Part shown: positions 3,152 through 10,728 of the stretch, one piece after another
How positions within the stretch are numbered: the first letter of the stretch is position 1
Layout: the number at the start of each line of letters is the position of its first letter
Assembly (NCBI RefSeq): GCF_004570345.1
Contig: NZ_SPQM01000129.1
Location: forward strand, 1 to 12,691
From: Blastococcus sp. CT_GayMR20
GTDB taxonomy: Bacteria > Actinomycetota > Actinomycetes > Mycobacteriales > Geodermatophilaceae
Direction: 5' to 3'
DNA: 12,691 nucleotides
Notes under the pieces: generated by a model
What the model was told of the DNA's origin: nothing
Database searches by the model: none
The model's input: only the letters and a program-made list of their open reading frames with translations
Made by a program: the position numbers and the translations under genes

Positions 3152-3156
3152 GGGAG

Positions 3157-3230
3157 TAGCGGTGACCGGACTTGAACCGGTGACACAGCGATTATGAGCC
3201 GCTTGCTCTACCAGGCTGAGCTACACCGCC
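3157..3230 (-). tRNA. tRNA-Met (CAT), elongator type
   Basis: This is a 74-nt cloverleaf on the minus strand. The acceptor strands are GGCGGTG and CACCGCT (ending in a G-U pair), the D-stem is GCTC/GAGC, the anticodon loop CTCATAA gives CAT, and the T-arm is ACCGG-TTCAAGT-CCGGT. The anticodon stem lacks the three consecutive G-C pairs of initiator tRNA, so it is the elongator. The discriminator is A, and CCA is not encoded. Confidence 0.95.
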
Positions 3231-3285
3231 GGGTGACCGTGCGGCCCGGTCGCAGCGACTGGACCGGTAGGTCAGTTGTGTTACG

Positions 3286-3358
3286 AGCCCCTTTACGGAA
3301 TCGAACCGTAGACCTTCTCCTTACCATGGAGACGCTCTGCCGACTGAGCTAAAGGGGC
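3286..3358 (-). tRNA. tRNA-Thr (GGT)
   Basis: This is a 73-nt cloverleaf on the minus strand. The acceptor strands GCCCCTT and AAGGGGC pair perfectly, the D-stem is GCTC/GAGC, the anticodon stem is TCTCC/GGAGA with loop ATGGTAA (anticodon GGT), and the T-arm is TACGG-TTCGATT-CCGTA. The discriminator is T, and CCA is not encoded. It lies 55 nt upstream of tRNA-Met and is probably co-transcribed with it. Confidence 0.95.
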
Positions 3359-3438: not shown

Positions 3439-5982
3439 TTACGTGCGCACGAACAGGCGCCGGTGGATCGACCCGGGTGCGGCCGACCGCACGCCGGTGC
3501 GGGCCAGCAGCCAGCTCTCCAGGCGGTCGTCGGGCAGCGGCCGGCTGACCAGGAAGCCCTGCAGCTTGTCGCAGCCCATTTCCGCCAGCAGGTTGCGGGT
3601 CAGCTCGTCCTCGACACCCTCGGCCACCACGAACAGGCCGAGGTTGTGAGCCAGCTCGATGATCGAGCGGGCGATGAACGACTCGCCCTGGCTGGTCGAC
3701 ATGCCCAGCACGAAGGACTTGTCGATCTTGACCTCGTCGATCGGCAGCTGCCGCAGCTGGGACAGCGACGAGTAGCCGGTGCCGAAGTCGTCCATCGAGA
3801 GTCGCAGGCCCAGTGCGTGCAGGTCGGCGAGCACCGTGCTGTCGCGGACGGAGTCCCCGACGACGCTGCCCTCGGTCAGCTCCAGAGTGAGCAGCTCACC
3901 CGGGACGCCGTGGCGTTGCAGGGCCCGCCGGACGCGCGAGACGAGGTCCGGTTCGGTCAGGCAGTGCGCGGACAGGTTCACCGCTACCGACAGCGCGATG
4001 TCCTGGTCCAGCCACCGCCGGCAGCGGGCGAGGGCCAGGTCGAGCACGTGGTCGGTCACCGCGCCGATCCGGCCGATCTGCTCGGCGAGGTGGATGAAGT
4101 CGTCCGGCGAGACCGCGCCGTAGCGGGGATGGGCCCAGCGGACGAGCGTCTCCACCGACACGATGTCCGACGTCTGGGCGTCGATGATCGGCTGGAAGAC
4201 CACGCTGATCTGGCCGTCTGCCATCGCCTGCTCGAGCTCGGTGCCCAGCTGCAGGCGGCGCAGGCTCTGCTGGTCGAGGACGGGGTGGTAGCTGGCCACC
4301 CCGCCGGACTCGACGGCGGCCAGCAGGGCGACGTCGGCGCGCTGCATGAGCGTCCCGGCGTCCGTCCCGTGCACGGGAGCGGCGGCGACGCCGATCTTCA
4401 GGGTGACCTCCAGATCGAGGCCGGCCACCCGGGCCCGGGTGGAGGCAGCCTCGCGCAGGCGGCGCGCCGCGCGCTCGGTCGCGGCCAGCGACAGGCCGGG
4501 CAGCAGGACGGCGAACTGCTCACCCTCCATCCGGGCCAGCAGCGCGTGCGGCGGGGCGTGCTCTCGCAGCAGGCCGGCCGTCACCAGGAGCAGCTCGTCG
4601 CTGGCTGCATGCCCCAGGGTGTCGGTCACCTCGGTGTAGTTGCCGAGCGAGGCCAGGATGAGGCCCGCCCGCGCGACGGCCGCGTCGGCGGAGAGCACCT
4701 GGTCGATCTCGGCCGCCAGGCGCTGCCGGTTGGGCAGCCCGGTCAGCCGGTCGTGGTCGGCGTCGTAGCGGATCTGGGTGAGCAGCTGCTGGTGCCGGAT
4801 CGCGGCGTTGACGTGCGTCAGCATCGAGTCCAGCGCAGCACGGTCGCTGTCGGCGAAGGAGACGATGTCGCTGCGGCGGTCGCACACCTCGAGGTAGCCG
4901 GGCTCGCCGGCCGCCGTCATGACCGGGGCGCCGAGCAGGTCGGAGACGCCGCGCCGCGCGAGCGCAGCCATCTCCTCGGCGTCGGCCTTCGCCATCGAGA
5001 CGAGGAGCGGGCCCTCCACGGAGCTGACCGCGCGACGCCGGAAGACGTCGTCCGGGTCCCCGGGGCCGTCGTACCAGACCGCGCCGTTCTCGGCGGAGAC
5101 GATCAGACGCGGCTCCTCGTCGAGGTAGGGCGGCAGCCACAGCGCCACTCGCTCGGCGTTGAGCAGTTCGCGGACGGCCTCGACGATCTGCTGCGTGCCC
5201 GCCTCGTCGGGCGACACCTGCTCGACCCGGCGGGCGAAGTCGTAGACCCGCTCGACGCTGCTGCCCTCGCGGGCGACCTTGCCGAACCGCCGGAAGAGCA
5301 GACCCACCACGGACAGCACCGGGAGGATGAGCAGCCACGCCCAGGTGCTGAGGGTGGACAGCAGCAGCGCCATGATCCCGACGGACACGATGACCGGCGA
5401 GACGATGGCGATCGGGACCAGTTGCTCGCGCCAGACCTGCGGTCCGTTGTAGCCCGCCGTCAGGATGATCGCCGACGTGATCATGAGGGCGACGACGACG
5501 TTGGCCACCAGGACGGCCAGGATCAGCTCGAACCAGCGGAGCGGGTCGGTGATCTCCGCGGCGGGCAGGGCGTCGAGGACCGCGACGGCGACTGAGCCGT
5601 GCAGCAGGACCATCGCCAGGTTGAACAGCGTCTTGGGCGGCGTGTAGGTCCGGAAGGACATCTGGACGGCGAGCGCGACGATCCACGAGAGCGTGGCCCA
5701 GAAACCGCCGACCTCGACCAGGGCGATGGTGAGCGGGAGTTCGGCCAGCGACCAGGAGAAGGTCTGCCGCCGGAACTCCACGTGCATCTCGATCGACTCG
5801 GCGATGAGGAAGAGCACGAAGACGGCGAGGACGGCGAGCGGCTGGAACGGTTCGATCGCCCCCGGCAGGACGACGACGGCCAGCGGGAGCGCGATGAGAC
5901 TGCCGGTGACGGCAATCGTCCATGCCCTGCGCGCCGCCGCGGTCGACACGCGCGGGGCAGGGGCTATCTCGGGCTCGGCCAA
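3439..5982 (-). CDS. Membrane GAF/degenerate GGDEF/EAL protein, probable c-di-GMP phosphodiesterase
   Basis: This 847-residue inner-membrane protein probably hydrolyses cyclic di-GMP. Residues about 20-230 hold six or so hydrophobic helices (a membrane sensor region), about 250-395 a GAF-like domain, 405-570 a GGDEF domain and 580-830 an EAL domain. The GGDEF signature is replaced by EGEQF (486-490), and the metal-binding aspartate upstream is lost (LASLGNY), so cyclase activity is unlikely. The EAL domain keeps its key residues: Glu611 in ETL (variant of EAL), Asn669, Glu701, Asp731/Asp732 in DDFGTGYSS, Lys752, Glu788 and Gln808. The degenerate GGDEF may act as a GTP or regulatory site, as known for other tandem proteins. 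The start used is TTG at 5980-5982, with at best a weak ribosome-binding site. A GTG at codon 12 is an alternative. The stop is TAA. It is probably a single-gene transcript. Confidence 0.9.
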   Translation of the reverse strand: MAEPEIAPAPRVSTAAARRAWTIAVTGSLIALPLAVVVLPGAIEPFQPLAVLAVFVLFLIAESIEMHVEFRRQTFSWSLAELPLTIALVEVGGFWATLSWIVALAVQMSFRTYTPPKTLFNLAMVLLHGSVAVAVLDALPAAEITDPLRWFELILAVLVANVVVALMITSAIILTAGYNGPQVWREQLVPIAIVSPVIVSVGIMALLLSTLSTWAWLLILPVLSVVGLLFRRFGKVAREGSSVERVYDFARRVEQVSPDEAGTQQIVEAVRELLNAERVALWLPPYLDEEPRLIVSAENGAVWYDGPGDPDDVFRRRAVSSVEGPLLVSMAKADAEEMAALARRGVSDLLGAPVMTAAGEPGYLEVCDRRSDIVSFADSDRAALDSMLTHVNAAIRHQQLLTQIRYDADHDRLTGLPNRQRLAAEIDQVLSADAAVARAGLILASLGNYTEVTDTLGHAASDELLLVTAGLLREHAPPHALLARMEGEQFAVLLPGLSLAATERAARRLREAASTRARVAGLDLEVTLKIGVAAAPVHGTDAGTLMQRADVALLAAVESGGVASYHPVLDQQSLRRLQLGTELEQAMADGQISVVFQPIIDAQTSDIVSVETLVRWAHPRYGAVSPDDFIHLAEQIGRIGAVTDHVLDLALARCRRWLDQDIALSVAVNLSAHCLTEPDLVSRVRRALQRHGVPGELLTLELTEGSVVGDSVRDSTVLADLHALGLRLSMDDFGTGYSSLSQLRQLPIDEVKIDKSFVLGMSTSQGESFIARSIIELAHNLGLFVVAEGVEDELTRNLLAEMGCDKLQGFLVSRPLPDDRLESWLLARTGVRSAAPGSIHRRLFVRT

Positions 5983-6065
5983 CGTGACCCGGTTTCTCGG
6001 AAGTGGGAAGGGCGGCGCCGAGGCTAACAGCGGCGGGGCCTCGAACCGAGGAGCCGGAACCCGAA

Positions 6066-6112
6066 CGGGGCAGGTGGTCGCGTACCGCCTGCCCCGTCGA
6101 AGGATTCTTCGA
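6066..6112 (-). terminator. Two consecutive hairpins after the RTGKWG-repeat gene
   Basis: The first, TCGAAG/CTTCGA (6-bp stem, 4-nt loop, 6097-6112), directly abuts the stop codon. The second is a 12-bp stem (6066-6077 with 6085-6096, one G-U pair, 7-nt loop). Together they form a strong termination or 3'-protection structure for the small gene. There is no T-run. Confidence 0.65.
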
Positions 6113-6214
6113 TCAGAGGGAGCTACGGCCCCACTTGCCGGTGCGGCCCCACTTGCCGGTGCGGCCCCACTTGCCGGTGCGGCCCCACTTGCCGGTACGG
6201 ATCTGCGAGCTCAT
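6113..6214 (-). CDS. 33-residue RTGKWG tandem-repeat peptide, unknown function
   Basis: I recognise no family. The product starts MSSQI, continues with four exact copies of RTGKWG (residues 6-29) and ends RSSL. It has four Trp, four Lys and five Arg with no acidic residue, so it is very basic and Trp-rich, with no hydrophobic helix or signal peptide. Support for a real gene: GGAGG (minus strand, 6219-6223) 4 nt before the ATG at 6212-6214; DNA repeats of exactly 18 bp that keep frame; a single repeat difference (CGT for CGC) that is silent; and a strong hairpin pair right after the TGA. It stands alone between the EAL gene and the type VII-like pair, both also on the minus strand. Possible roles are a modified or antimicrobial-like cationic peptide, or a nucleic-acid or membrane binder. 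No modifying enzyme is nearby. An upstream in-frame ATG (codon 9 before MSSQI) lacks a ribosome-binding site. Confidence 0.7.
   Translation of the reverse strand: MSSQIRTGKWGRTGKWGRTGKWGRTGKWGRSSL
6126..6197. repeat. Four tandem copies of an 18-bp unit
   Basis: Units lie at 6126-6143, 6144-6161, 6162-6179 and 6180-6197. Three are identical and the fourth differs by one base (A at 6197 for G). They encode the RTGKWG repeats. Near-perfect identity indicates recent expansion or homogenisation, so copy number may vary between strains. Confidence 0.97.
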
Positions 6215-6358
6215 GACGCCTCCACGTGAAATTGGCATGACTGACTGCGGTTGCTGCGGCAGCCACTTACGCGCGGGGGCAGAGCGTCGTTCGGTACGGA
6301 CCGCGCTGGGAACATTGCTTCCCGTCACCCACTGGGACAAGCATCGAAGATCACGACG

Positions 6359-6385
6359 GAGTGACGAACCCTCGCGTCGTCACTC
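6359..6385 (-). terminator. Perfect 9-bp stem-loop after the DUF6571-like gene
   Basis: GAGTGACGA (6359-6367) pairs perfectly with TCGTCACTC (6377-6385) around a 9-nt loop, about 50 nt past the stop of the minus-strand gene. It is probably that gene's terminator. It lies about 145 nt upstream of the repeat-peptide start, so it could alternatively be an operator for that gene. Confidence 0.5.
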
Positions 6386-6435
6386 AGTGTGACCAGAGGT
6401 CGACTTGTCGTCATCGAACGGGTGACACGGACGTG

Positions 6436-8550
6436 TCAGCGGAGCAACTGCACCACGTCGTTGACACCTCTCCCTGCCGTCCTGAGTCCGCCGCTGACAA
6501 CCTCACCCGTCACGGTGTCCACGACCGGGTCCAGCCAATTCGCCTTCGGTGAGACCGGCGCTGCCGGGATCCCGAGGGCTGCGCCCGTGCGCTCGAACGC
6601 CTCCTCCGCCTGTCGCGCGACCGACTCGACATCCCGCCTGAGCTCCCACCGGACGCGCGCCTCCTCGGCCGCGTCGGCGCTGGAGAATCGCAGGCCCCGG
6701 TCAACCGGCTCGTCCCACGTACCGTCCGCACCGAAGAGGATCGCGGCCGAGCCCTCCGCGAACGACAGCGCGGCCCCGACCGGGCTCCGACGCACGAGTT
6801 CCCCTCCGACGGTGGTCGGCAGACCCACGGTCCAGTTCCAGAGCAGTTCGACGTTCTCGGCCCGCTGTTTCGCCTCGAACCCGTCGAGCGCGTGGTTCAG
6901 CCGGTGTCCGTACTCCCGAACCGCGAGGAAGGCGGCCGGGAGGACCACCACCGGATGGGGTGCCCCGTCGCCGGCCACGGTGGAGGACCCGGGAACCACA
7001 CCGAGGGAGCGCTGGAGGGCCGCGCCGATCGCGGCGGCTGCACTCGCATCGAGGCTGACGTAGCCAATCCCTCGCAGGACCTCTTCCTGGCGGTCGACCA
7101 GACGGCCGTCGACCCCTACCGACAGCGCTCCCGCGGCGACATGCACCTGACTCGCCACCGCGCGGCCGATGTCGGCAGCAACCTGAGCGACGGTCCGGCG
7201 GCTGACATCCCAGTCCCGCGGTGATCCCTCGAACAGGCTGCTGCCGATCACGTCGAGGCCGGACCGCACGGCGTCTGCCCCCGCCTCTCCCGCCTGCAGC
7301 GCCGCGGACACGATCACCTGCCCGAGCGCGGCCCCACCGTCGTTCCAGCCCCGTGCCAGCGCCGCCTCCCAGACTGCCCCGTCCCCGAGCAGGGCCGCGG
7401 AGGCCGCGGAGTCGTGGCGGTCGGCCAGGAGACCCACCATCTGCCCGACCGGATCCGACGCCTCGGGCGGAAAGCCCTTCGGCAGGTCCCCGAGCCCCAC
7501 ATCCGTGCCCTGGACGTGTTCCCTCGACAGCATCTGGCGTGCCCATCCGGCGACGGTTGCCGGGCGCGGCCCCCCGGAACCGCCCGTCCGTCCTGCGACG
7601 ACGACCGCTGCCATCCCCACGGCCACCGCGTCGGAGTCGCCGTATCGCTCGTCGGTGTGGACGTAGACGGCGCCCAGGACGTCGTCGACCTCGCCGCTGC
7701 CGGCCGCCGCACCGAGTGCGGTGCCCAACATGGTGGCGAGGAAGGGCAACCACTCTCCGCCGCTGCCGAGGCGGGACAGCAGGGCACGGACGCCTTCGGC
7801 ACCCAGCGCCTCGAGAAACGCGGTCGCGAACGGAGGCGCCCCGGCGCTCGCGGTGGCCTGACGGGCGGCCTCCTCCATGCCGGCCGGTGTGGTGGCCTCG
7901 AACAGCGCGGTCGCAAGGGCCGCTCCCGATGCGGCGAGCTGTGGATCGCCCCAGAACGGGAGCAGAGCCGCCAGGTGGGCGAGCGCGCGCGTGTCATCGC
8001 CGGGCCGGCCGGTGCCGCCGACCACGGCGCAGGCGTCCACCAGTGCCCTCGCGGTGGCGCTGGCGTCGTCCTCGACATCGGCGAGCAGCGCCTCGTGCCT
8101 CCTGCGCCGCGACTCCTCGGACGCCCGCAGGTCCTCGACGACAGCCACCGCACCCGCGCCGTCGTACTGGACCTGCGCGCGGATGACCTCCAGCTCGCTC
8201 CACCGGCCCCAGGCCACGGCGTGGTCGTCGTCCTGCTCGGCTCTCAGGTCCCTCACCTGCCGCCGGGCGTCGCGGAGCCGGTCCGCGTGCGCGCTCAGGT
8301 GACCGGTCGCGACGAGCACCGCACCACCGACCTCGCGCACGAGGTGGCGCACCCGCCCGATCTGGGCAGCGGCCGCCGCCGCGTCGTCCCCGATCCACCC
8401 CGGCGCTGTCGCGGCCGGCCCCTCCAGGTCACCCGCGAGGACCGCCAGCACGTGCGCGGCGCCGGCGACCGACCGGACGACGTCGTCGATCGCCGCCGGG
8501 TCGCCGGGGGGCATGTCGAGCGGGATCCTGGCCGGCAGAGCGGTGGTCAT
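6436..8550 (-). CDS. WXG-type N-terminal, DUF6571-like large protein; putative type VII secretion-associated protein
   Basis: This gene encodes a 704-residue Ala/Gly-rich protein. The N-terminal part (about 14-100) is helical and resembles WXG100-superfamily leaders: PPGDPAAIDDVV, then a WIG turn at 52-54 followed by DDAAAAAAQI. Charged helices with coiled-coil character follow (about 90-165). A later region contains FATAFLEALGAEGVRALL (241 onward) and a repeated helix pattern seen in actinobacterial DUF6571-type proteins; this family name is from recall, not a search. No catalytic motif, signal peptide or convincing toxin domain is visible. ATG at 8548-8550 overlaps the stop of the preceding EspC-like gene (ATGA), so the two are translationally coupled and probably work together. 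The open frame extends to 8940, but the extra 130 residues are Arg/Gly-rich shadow sequence overlapping that gene. No ESX machinery is in the window, so secretion is an inference. Confidence 0.75.
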   Translation of the reverse strand: MTTALPARIPLDMPPGDPAAIDDVVRSVAGAAHVLAVLAGDLEGPAATAPGWIGDDAAAAAAQIGRVRHLVREVGGAVLVATGHLSAHADRLRDARRQVRDLRAEQDDDHAVAWGRWSELEVIRAQVQYDGAGAVAVVEDLRASEESRRRRHEALLADVEDDASATARALVDACAVVGGTGRPGDDTRALAHLAALLPFWGDPQLAASGAALATALFEATTPAGMEEAARQATASAGAPPFATAFLEALGAEGVRALLSRLGSGGEWLPFLATMLGTALGAAAGSGEVDDVLGAVYVHTDERYGDSDAVAVGMAAVVVAGRTGGSGGPRPATVAGWARQMLSREHVQGTDVGLGDLPKGFPPEASDPVGQMVGLLADRHDSAASAALLGDGAVWEAALARGWNDGGAALGQVIVSAALQAGEAGADAVRSGLDVIGSSLFEGSPRDWDVSRRTVAQVAADIGRAVASQVHVAAGALSVGVDGRLVDRQEEVLRGIGYVSLDASAAAAIGAALQRSLGVVPGSSTVAGDGAPHPVVVLPAAFLAVREYGHRLNHALDGFEAKQRAENVELLWNWTVGLPTTVGGELVRRSPVGAALSFAEGSAAILFGADGTWDEPVDRGLRFSSADAAEEARVRWELRRDVESVARQAEEAFERTGAALGIPAAPVSPKANWLDPVVDTVTGEVVSGGLRTAGRGVNDVVQLLR

Positions 8551-8828
8551 CCGAGGCGCGCCCGACCCGGGCCGGCGAGCACCGTGCCGTCGACGGTCAG
8601 CCAGGAGTCCGCGACCGCCGCCACGGTGTCCCCGAGCCACTGCAGTTCTCCCTCGAGGGCTCGACCGGCCGTCCGGTGGCTGTCGAGGAACGCCTCGACC
8701 GCGACGCTCAGAGGACCGACGTCCCCCGGCTCGTGAAGGCGGACGGCGAACTCCTGCGCCGTCCCTGCTGAGGCCCGGAGCGCGTTGGCGAGGCCGTAGA
8801 CCTCGCGTGCCGGCATCTCGATCGACAT
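8547..8828 (-). CDS. Small helical EspC/WXG100-like protein
   Basis: This 93-residue protein is predicted to be two helices around a short loop (EPGDVG, residues 33-38), the size and layout of type VII secretion-associated EspC or WXG100-like proteins. It starts MSIEMPAREVYGLANALRAS. A WLG tripeptide occurs at 64-66 but lies in the second helix, not at the turn, so it is not a classical WXG motif. The ATG at 8826-8828 was chosen because the open frame upstream to 8933 becomes Arg/Cys-rich and overlaps the DnaA-box-like cluster. The ribosome-binding site is weak (GAGAC). Its stop overlaps the start of the large downstream gene, giving a two-gene operon reminiscent of EspC-like chaperone or partner plus large substrate. 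Family assignment is by general form, not by a diagnostic motif. Confidence 0.72.
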   Translation of the reverse strand: MSIEMPAREVYGLANALRASAGTAQEFAVRLHEPGDVGPLSVAVEAFLDSHRTAGRALEGELQWLGDTVAAVADSWLTVDGTVLAGPGRARLG

Positions 8829-8867
8829 GGCGGCAGTCTCGCGTCGCTCCGCCACCCGCCGTGAGCG

Positions 8868-8953
8868 TCGTCCACAGGCCCGCCCGCGGGACAGGGCACC
8901 ACACGATCGGGTGTCCACAGTGTCCACAGGCATCGTCCACAGAGAGTGGACAA
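8868..8953. promoter_or_regulatory. Cluster of five DnaA-box-like 9-mers
   Basis: The actinobacterial DnaA-box consensus is TTGTCCACA. Plus-strand matches are TCGTCCACA (8868-8876), GTGTCCACA (8911-8919), GTGTCCACA (8920-8928) and TCGTCCACA (8933-8941). On the minus strand, TTGTCCACT occupies 8945-8953. The middle two form a perfect 9-bp tandem. The cluster fills the divergent gap between the EspC-like gene (-) and the TadG-like gene (+). It is not an origin: no dnaA/dnaN and no AT-rich unwinding region are present. Confidence 0.6.
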
Positions 8954-9447: not shown

Positions 9448-9459
9448 CCGAACCAGGCG

Positions 9460-9541
9460 TGGCGGGTGAAGGATTCGAACCTTCGTAGGCTAAGCCGACG
9501 GATTTACAGTCCGCTCCCATTGGCCACTCGGGCAACCCGCC
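9460..9541 (-). tRNA. tRNA-Tyr (GTA)
   Basis: This is an 82-nt class II tRNA on the minus strand. The acceptor strands are GGCGGGT and ACCCGCC, the anticodon stem is GCGGA/TCCGT with loop CTGTAAA (anticodon GTA), there is a long variable arm containing GGCTTAGCC, and the T-arm is GAAGG-TTCGAAT-CCTTC. The discriminator is A; CCA is not encoded. Confidence 0.95.
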
Positions 9542-9627: not shown

Positions 9628-10119
9628 ATGGCCGACGCGTCCTTCGACGTCGTGAGCAAGGTGGACCGCCAGGAGGTCGACAACGCCCTCAACCAAGCCG
9701 GCAAGGAGCTCTCGCAGCGCTTCGACTTCCGCGGCACCAACGCCACCATCTCCTGGGCCGGTGACGAGGGGGTGAGCCTCCAGGCCGACACCGAGGAGCG
9801 GGTGGCCGCGGCACTGGAGGTCTTCAAGGAGAAACTGATCAAGCGCGGCATCTCGCTGAAGGTGCTCGACGCCGGCGAGCCGCAGGCCTCCGGGAAGGTC
9901 TACAAGCTCTCGGCGAAGATCAAGCAGGGCATCGAGTCCGACGTCGCGAAGAAGATCGCCAAGCTGATCCGCGACGAGGGCCCCAAGGGCGTCCAGGCGC
10001 AGATCCAGGGCGACCAGCTGCGGGTCAGCGGGAAGAAGCGGGACGACCTGCAGGCTGTGCAGCAGCTGCTGCGCGGCGCCGACCTCGACGTCGCCCTGCA
10101 GTTCGACAACTACCGCTGA
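9628..10119 (+). CDS. yajQ: YajQ family nucleotide (c-di-GMP)-binding protein
   Basis: This 163-residue protein matches YajQ (UPF0234) in length and sequence. It starts [20 protein letters not shown], continues with SQRFDFRGT and the signature [27 protein letters not shown], and ends LQFDNYR. YajQ has two ferredoxin-like domains. The Xanthomonas homologue binds cyclic di-GMP and modulates a LysR-type regulator; roles elsewhere are less clear. The ATG at 9628 is preceded by AGAGGAAGAG. The open frame reaches back to 9466 across the tRNA-Tyr gene, which rules out the longer form. It is divergent from tRNA-Tyr and overlaps the methyltransferase gene tail-to-tail by 10 nt. The phosphodiesterase with an intact EAL domain in the same window makes a shared c-di-GMP theme possible but not shown. 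Confidence 0.95.
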
Positions 10120-10649
10120 TCGACAGCAGCTCGGCGCCTCGGGTCACGGCGCCTGACTCCCCGCCAGGGAGTCAGGCGCGGCAGCCACCGCGGCACGTTC
10201 GCGCAGAACTCCTCGTACGGCGGGCCGTAGGCCTCGCGCAGGGTGGGTTCCTCGTACGTGCGCACGAAGGCGTGCACGGTGAGGCCGAGGACGACCAGAT
10301 AGCCGAAGAGCCCCCAACTCGTGAAGAGGAGGACCTGGCCGAGCACGAGCGCGAGGACCGCGACGTACATGGGGTTCCGGACGTGCCGGTAGGCGCCCTC
10401 GACGACCAGCCGTTCGGTCGGCGCCGATGGTGCGGGTGTCCCCCGCCCGTGCCAGGCGAAGGCGACGAACGCGTGGGCCAGCGCCGCCGCTCCGGCGAGG
10501 ACGAGGACCCAGCCCAGGCCGTCGACCCACGGCACCGGATCGACGGGCCGACGCCAACGTGTGATCAGCGAGGGCACCAGGACGCAGACGGTTCCGGGTG
10601 TCACGAGCAGGAAACCGAAGCTGCCGACTGCGGCCGAGGTCCTCTTCAT
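10110..10649 (-). CDS. Isoprenylcysteine carboxyl methyltransferase (ICMT/PEMT-like) family membrane protein
   Basis: This predicted integral-membrane methyltransferase has 179 residues. Hydrophobic helices lie at about 7-29, 43-66 and 96-130. The family motif is clear: RHVRNPMY (88-95), then [16 protein letters not shown] (133-148) and VPRWLP (152-157), which form the SAM-binding pocket in ICMT, phospholipid N-methyltransferase and related proteins. Bacteria do not usually prenylate proteins, so the substrate is unknown; a lipid or small molecule is likely. The ATG at 10647-10649 is preferred over the ATG at 10677-10679: it has GGAG 5 nt upstream, while the upstream one has no ribosome-binding site and lies between the predicted -10 and transcription start. 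The gene is divergent from a TetR regulator that probably controls it. Its TAG overlaps the end of yajQ by 10 nt. Confidence 0.87.
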
Positions 10650-10670
10650 GGCATCTCCGGAGTCACCAGG

Positions 10671-10728
10671 TGTTGACATCAGCGTAGAGCCGCGGATCCG
10701 GCGAGGTCAACGCGTGCTGACATAGCAT
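10671..10728. promoter_or_regulatory. Divergent promoters and possible TetR operator
   Basis: Minus strand: -35 TTGACC (10705-10710), 18-nt spacer, -10 TACGCT (10681-10686), serving the methyltransferase. Plus strand: -10 TAGCAT (10723-10728) exactly 7 nt before the TetR GTG, so that transcript is probably leaderless. A near-direct repeat, TGTTGACATC (10671-10680) and TGCTGACATA (10715-10724), touches each promoter. GTTGAC (10672-10677) and GTCAAC (10706-10711) are inverted, and the centre has palindrome CGGATCCG (10693-10700). Confidence 0.6.

Follow-up and report, generated by a model that had tools for sequence, protein, structure and literature searches.

We found that a short gene at 6113–6214 on the minus strand of the window, the whole 12,691-nucleotide stretch of Blastococcus DNA analysed here, is one of a large and, it appears, previously undescribed family of Trp-centred repeat peptides encoded beside a membrane c-di-GMP enzyme in actinobacteria. 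On balance, we slightly favour the view that the Trp-repeat peptide and the neighbouring enzyme constitute a two-gene module of ligand and sensor. In the open-access literature (subscription papers lay outside the scope of the search), none of the titles or abstract starts listed describes such a module.

The gene encodes 33 amino acids, MSSQI(RTGKWG)4RSSL; translation of 6113–6214 (minus strand) gave MSSQIRTGKWGRTGKWGRTGKWGRTGKWGRSSL*, and an array-bearing open reading frame (ORF) occupies the equivalent place in the family. Tandem Repeats Finder reported an array of 18-bp units at 6126–6200 on the minus strand (period 18, 4.2 copies, 98% matches, score 143), and pairwise comparison of the units revealed three synonymous changes and no nonsynonymous one. 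The original prediction had described four exact RTGKWG units, DNA repeats that differ silently, and an ATG with a strong ribosome-binding site (RBS) and a hairpin after the stop; each of these is borne out, with the ATG at 6214–6212, the Shine-Dalgarno sequence GGAGG at 6219–6223 (minus strand; four bases before the ATG, read from the sequence and similar in the family alignment), and a terminator-like hairpin at 6065–6097 (minus strand; also a sequence reading, and recurrent in the family). Its statement that there is no classical leader likewise holds in the window lineage: five residues precede the array, and by reading the N-terminus is hydrophilic, with no signal peptide. Searches of Pfam and NCBIfam returned nothing above cut-off for the window peptide (collagen-like matches below cut-off only) and, for the peptides of seven relatives, at most weak sub-threshold matches, in agreement with the claim that the pattern fits no known family. 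Collagen and prion-octapeptide profile matches of the peptides tested were dropped as falling below cut-off. A plasmid collection yielded four short unrelated matches in one search and none in another.

The peptide is no orphan, as it had initially been called. We searched 112 genomes of one GTDB family, taken to be Geodermatophilaceae, with the first 400 residues of the enzyme, which matched 110 of them. Strong best matches (E 1.1e-50 or better) in 106 genomes, two of which carry two loci, defined 108 loci; four genomes with weak enzyme matches only (G273, G294, G302 and G313) were left uncounted. An orthologous enzyme lies downstream at all 108 loci, and 102 of them have a called array of two to five Trp units upstream. 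At the six loci missed by the array caller, a related W unit is present (by eye, unblinded): the array of G255 is cut by a contig end, G030 has one unit, and G298–G301 have other W units, in two cases behind a signal-like N-terminus. Trp in 103 of 103 called arrays (the 102 plus the window) is built in because the caller demands a Trp every six residues. In a Trp-independent check, the ORF was taken blindly after the leader anchor and RBS at 109 places including the window; an ORF was present at 102 places, all 102 contained Trp, and 101 contained two or more. Across the 103 arrays, the unit begins with Arg in 95, has Lys or Arg at position 4 in 98, and carries Gly, Ser, Thr, Asn or Ala at position 6 in 102. 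The commonest units number 67 as called, a few of which differ merely by first-unit phase, and the N-terminus is hydrophilic, by reading, in the family members listed.

Units within an array are homogeneous: 91 of the 103 arrays repeat one and the same protein unit, and in most of the remaining 12 the difference is confined to an edge unit. Codon columns that vary within arrays number 227; the variation is purely synonymous in 211 and changes the amino acid in 16, against 52 synonymous columns expected from random single changes (binomial p about 1e-112, the columns not being fully independent). The peptide is therefore under selection, in support of the earlier claim of a real small gene. Homologous frames, the absence of which from relatives the original prediction had named as evidence against itself, are present. 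The array copies are old, with their protein units kept alike by selection while the DNA drifts. Similar arrays differ in every copy at once (RGVKWG versus RGVRWG), and the codon at the Lys/Arg position may be AAG, CGC, CGG or CGT. All units of an array change together between species, which slippage alone would not bring about.

Relatives were missed by an exact-letter contig scan with (RTG[KR]WG)2 because the unit changes between species; its one hit was a DRSGPT repeat of Nocardia alni read in antisense. When the peptide, lengthened to 40 amino acids, served as a protein query, none of 68 candidates scored. An 18-nt-period pattern matched 43 of the 112 family genomes, some of these being chance matches inside other frames, and the six of its matches inspected in an order-level sample outside the family (L090–L095) were dropped because they fall within, or antisense to, long frames made of other repeats. 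Two genomes carry two cluster copies with differing units, RTAKWG and RTARWG at L062 and L063 (G274) and RNGRWG and RAGRWG at L071 and L072 (G295); duplication or mixed bins are both possible explanations.

The gene at 3439–5982 (minus strand; 847 amino acids, TTG start) lies on the same strand, directly downstream of the tandem, uniform Trp-centred array, and encodes eight predicted N-terminal helices followed by GAF, GGDEF and EAL domains (Pfam; AlphaFold). The AlphaFold model covers residues 1–400, and the eight predicted helices are mostly hydrophobic. From this model and the sequence, we placed a transmembrane (TM) sensor region at about residues 14–236 (5275–5943, minus strand), which is more variable than the following GAF region. 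Foldseek matches listed for the first 400 residues fell on the GAF part, and none was useful for the TM part. The original prediction had reported no modifying enzyme nearby, and none was recognised with Pfam or NCBIfam among the nine window ORFs scanned; it had overlooked the TM-GAF-GGDEF-EAL gene as a meaningful neighbour.

We then considered the expression signals of both genes. Alignment of 38 loci revealed TTG[CT]C, 17 bases, cAatgT, then GCGGTCCGTACCGAACGACGCTCTGCCCCCGCG, a small hairpin and the RBS, strongly conserved in nearly all of the loci, with L071 deviating. In the window, a promoter-like element at 6312–6340 (minus strand) comprises a −35 TTGTCC (6340–6335), a 17-nt spacer and a −10 CAATGT (6317–6312), and is conserved in most of the aligned loci; we infer that it serves as the promoter. 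The conserved 5′ leader at 6243–6310 (minus strand) includes the small hairpin GGCTGC/GCAGTC (6264–6243), and GCTCTGCCCCCGCG is nearly invariant within it. Pairing support in the leader was slight, with two-sided change in 2 of 18 pairs (RNAalifold, 22 sequences), and Rfam gave no match to the leader above the gathering score; because of the little covariation, we make no riboswitch claim. After the stop, the best 45-nt hairpin had a median of −31.8 kcal/mol in 103 arrays, versus −25.0 kcal/mol in 76 upstream controls. A TTAGC-like string occurs between the array and the enzyme start at 81 of 103 arrays; in the window it is represented by CTGTTAGCCT at 6021–6030 (minus strand), a −10-like element ahead of the enzyme gene that may act as a second promoter. 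The peptide gene thus probably forms a transcription unit of its own, and since the terminator-like hairpin and this additional promoter-like element separate the genes, peptide and enzyme need not be co-expressed. Farther upstream, TCACACTGAGTGA at 6380–6392 (minus strand) fits TnACnCWGnGTnA, which we take to be the box of BldD, a regulator that binds c-di-GMP. In relatives, the alignment contains several GTCACCC...GGTGAC boxes upstream of the peptide promoter.

Pairing of the enzyme with Trp-motif proteins extends beyond the family. In an order-wide sample of 249 genomes, 158 had an enzyme match, and we inspected the region upstream of 38 weaker homologues by eye, unblinded; 34 of the 38 had a short W-motif ORF there, many of these with a hydrophobic N-terminus (including G176, G221 and G233; hydropathy, no signal-peptide program). 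The repeats included (DGNTWTFV)n, (DGGSWTFA)n and (AGDIVWQ)n, and single motifs included GVEWG and DVVWT. G011 and G027 showed no candidate ORF upstream of the enzyme homologue by eye. In G106 (L236) and G120 (L240), signal-like repeat peptides without Trp precede the enzyme gene, with the units SGEVN and NSGDVA, respectively; these are possibly a second ligand type. A profile of 18 signal-bearing peptides retrieved 23 database proteins, mostly from Micromonospora, of which 19 are named hypothetical, one is named 'Fic family protein' and three are unnamed.

The class-wide sample comprised 296 genomes, of which 46 had the enzyme; of 30 loci fetched and inspected by eye, unblinded, 17 had a W-motif ORF upstream. 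Thirteen of these were long Trp-repeat tails such as (GSQWS)n, (GAGWR)n and (GLRWN)n, and all four tailed proteins tested were subtilases (PF00082); small W peptides were found at L248, L249, L255 and L272. The other 13 class-level loci had no W ORF in reach, some of them being paralogs or contig ends. For the phylum-wide sample, also of 296 genomes, a different query was used; 89 genomes matched, and Trp-repeat tails lay upstream at 13 of the 30 loci fetched. The 17 loci without such an ORF again include paralogs and contig ends. Across the two samples, one extreme case is L256, with just 121 bases upstream. In an antisense control of the phylum sample, three of 30 loci contained repeats; two of these loci bear a tail, and the repeats there are probably its antisense. 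L248 and L255 of the class sample and L285 of the phylum sample come from genomes already within the order-level set.

Pairing was also observed in the reverse direction, starting from the subtilisins. The S8 query, the protein beside the enzyme of L251 and thus itself chosen next to such an enzyme, matched 99 of 112 family genomes, and we fetched the best locus of 30 genomes. A TM-domain homologue lies downstream on the same strand at 28 of these 30 loci (the misses being L332 and L337); each of the five TM queries was taken from downstream of an S8 locus that is itself among those tested, and without those five the count is 23 of 25. W repeats were present in 28 of 30 S8 tails; L335 and L337 did not show them in the frame read, where both fall short of three repeat pairs. 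Stop codons interrupt the excerpts read for L331, L337 and L350, and that of L347 contains masked bases. Among the genes downstream of S8, an EAL-type motif occurred in nine of nine fetched and a letter-exact GGDEF in eight, and GAF, GGDEF and EAL were all found in the four scanned. Among 41 enzyme paralogs compared with 56 S8 hits, both sets taken from among the matches listed, 20 had an S8 hit no more than 1.5 kb upstream and 21 did not, and in a control of 20 enzyme paralog loci a W-repeat ORF lay upstream in only seven. These results indicate that the tails nearly always accompany an enzyme, but that not every enzyme accompanies a tail. A hexapeptide array could be compared with an S8 tail in 28 genomes, and in every one of them the core around the Trp is different (G187, for example, has GSRWT and GLSWN), although the difference between S8-type and hexapeptide-type units may be one of mere subtypes.

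Distances between units correlated with distances between TM regions (r 0.375, 56 loci). Partial correlations were 0.205–0.332 when the distance of GAF, GGDEF-EAL, m2416, the M1-like protein or m11133 was held constant (20–36 loci), and the numbers of 999 permutations giving values as high were 0, 0, 0, 1 and 28, respectively; reverse partial correlations were 0.03–0.22. Because the TM region evolves fastest among those compared, we regard the correlation as a hint only, and shared ancestry could explain it.

In the ligand/sensor module that we slightly favour, the peptide gene would encode the ligand half, one Trp-centred unit repeated (here RTGKWG four times). The repeated unit would bind the TM sensor region of the neighbouring enzyme multivalently, and binding would alter c-di-GMP synthesis or breakdown by the TM-GAF-GGDEF-EAL enzyme; the binding itself, the side of the membrane on which it would occur and whether c-di-GMP would rise or fall are conjectural parts of this scheme. 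In other actinobacteria, the unit would be delivered as a signal-like small protein or as a subtilisin C-terminal tail, and different enzyme copies would pair with different units, so that the pairs would be insulated. Since the hexapeptide form has no signal peptide, it may act inside the cell or exit by some other route. This signal-less form counts against the module, as do the S8- or W-less paralogs, the Trp-less peptides of G106 and G120, the empty G011 and G027, the class- and phylum-level loci that lack a W ORF, and the hairpin and promoter-like element lying between the two genes. The broader proposal, that actinobacterial Trp-repeat ligands (naked arrays, secreted peptides and subtilisin tails) are each read by their own membrane GGDEF-EAL enzyme through species- and pair-specific repeat codes, is more tentative, and we place it somewhat below an even chance.

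Several other explanations share part of this evidence. The repeat could be a surface or envelope anchor, or a scaffold that binds a polymer or itself, with the c-di-GMP enzyme regulating adhesion and no direct recognition between the two. Secreted subtilisin tails may bear binding repeats, c-di-GMP governs adhesion in many bacteria, and both multivalent identical units and the Trp tails observed on S8 proteins would suit this; a constant polymer, however, would not demand that the units switch in all copies together, as from RGVKWG to RGVRWG, and single W units in some relatives and the pairing of a sensor with 28 of 30 S8 loci also speak against it, so we consider anchoring unlikely. We give slightly less credence to a precursor of a modified or processed peptide, of RiPP type or a repeated-core pheromone, that acts on other cells beside an incidental or indirectly related enzyme. 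Tandem identical cores of species-specific sequence, an S8 peptidase in related modules, and W-G-R and W-S-R strings resembling Trp crosslink motifs, of which WGK is one, would agree with such a precursor. Against it, no maturase or exporter was recognised among the nine window ORFs scanned (Pfam/NCBIfam: GGDEF-EAL, PEMT/ICMT-like, M1-like or nothing), core charge and length are not conserved, and similar units form S8 tails while the same enzyme type adjoins at 108 loci; the RiPP-like leaning of the original prediction accordingly finds no support. PepX of Streptomyces (PMC11256431) was considered and dropped, the passages available from that source giving no sequence and no link.

A leader ORF that controls enzyme expression through ribosome stalling or attenuation at Trp or Arg codons is improbable. 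It would account for a short ORF 5′ of the enzyme gene with regular Trp spacing, a conserved 5′ leader and a post-stop hairpin, but not for similar units at the ends of S8 proteins of 400 amino acids and more and in signal-like small proteins, nor for protein units that stay alike though codons differ, and a promoter-like element lies ahead of the enzyme gene. The original prediction leaned towards a cationic membrane-active peptide, and the units of the window lineage are indeed basic and Trp-rich; charge is not conserved, however, acidic or neutral units (DGNTWTFV, DGGSWTFA, GMSWS) occupying the equivalent position elsewhere, Pfam and NCBIfam recognised neither an immunity nor an export gene among the window ORFs scanned, and the peptide is present at all 108 family loci examined, which makes an Arg/Lys/Trp-rich antimicrobial or membrane-active role very improbable. 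We find it hardly credible that the tandem 18-bp repeat and its conserved leader are a DNA or RNA element (an array of protein-binding sites or a sponge RNA) in which the frame is incidental, given the 211 of 227 variable codon columns that are synonymous and the different codons at the Lys/Arg position.

For most membrane-bound GGDEF-EAL enzymes the sensed signal is, to our knowledge, not known. With the ligand/sensor module, a large GGDEF-EAL subfamily comes with a genetically linked, simple and synthesizable candidate ligand, and since the repeat code differs between species and between copies per genome, specificity is testable by unit swaps. If true, this reading would also suggest what the Trp-repeat tails of subtilisins in actinobacteria are for, and c-di-GMP signalling would gain a peptide input.

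The protein encoded at 6436–8940 (minus strand) is fast-evolving (704–834 amino acids, no family match), with an all-helical AlphaFold model (mean pLDDT 84.2) that gave no Foldseek match at E 0.001; its invariant W52 and G54 near the N-terminus are reminiscent of WXG/ESX-type proteins. Its named relatives are mostly from Blastococcus, with one from Modestobacter and one from Klenkia, which marks the contig as Geodermatophilaceae-like. We dropped it as a partner because it had no hit at a good part of the peptide-keeping loci. Genes for tRNA-Met, tRNA-Thr and tRNA-Tyr lie at 3156–3358 and 9459–9541 (minus strand), and Pfam indicated an M1-peptidase-like protein at 555–2426 and a PEMT/ICMT-like methyltransferase at 10110–10679 (both minus strand).

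Among known systems, amino-acid attenuation leaders resemble the window gene as tiny ORFs with several Trp codons before another gene, but here the Trp codons are spaced rather than consecutive, a promoter-like element precedes the next gene, and similar units also occur in large proteins. Repeated-core RiPP precursors of the WGK/streptide type share identical tandem cores with Trp beside Gly; they differ in that the window peptide has neither a leader peptide nor a recognised modifying enzyme nearby, and similar units are fused to S8 in relatives. ComX-ComP and CSP-ComD are peptide pheromone/receptor gene pairs, in which a short lineage-specific peptide is likewise encoded beside a polytopic membrane sensor. 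As in those pairs, a membrane protein that is polytopic by its predicted helices is encoded beside the window peptide, but the output there is a histidine kinase and here GGDEF-EAL, the units are repeated, no exporter was seen, and the hydrophilic N-terminus of the window peptide does not, by reading, suggest an exported peptide. Also comparable are the small Micromonospora-type 'hypothetical proteins' (MSGRRLGRLLG...DIVWQ), which lie upstream of a homologous enzyme and carry a W core towards the C-terminus, repeated in some; unlike the window peptide, they have a hydrophobic, signal-like N-terminus and often a single unit. Peptidase_S8 proteins (PF00082) with Trp tails also carry short Trp units (GSQWS, GLRWN, GMSWS) beside a TM-GAF-GGDEF-EAL enzyme; their tails consist mostly of five-residue units on a protease, whereas the 33-amino-acid window product, with no PF00082 match in Pfam and no signal peptide, is built of six-residue units with Arg.
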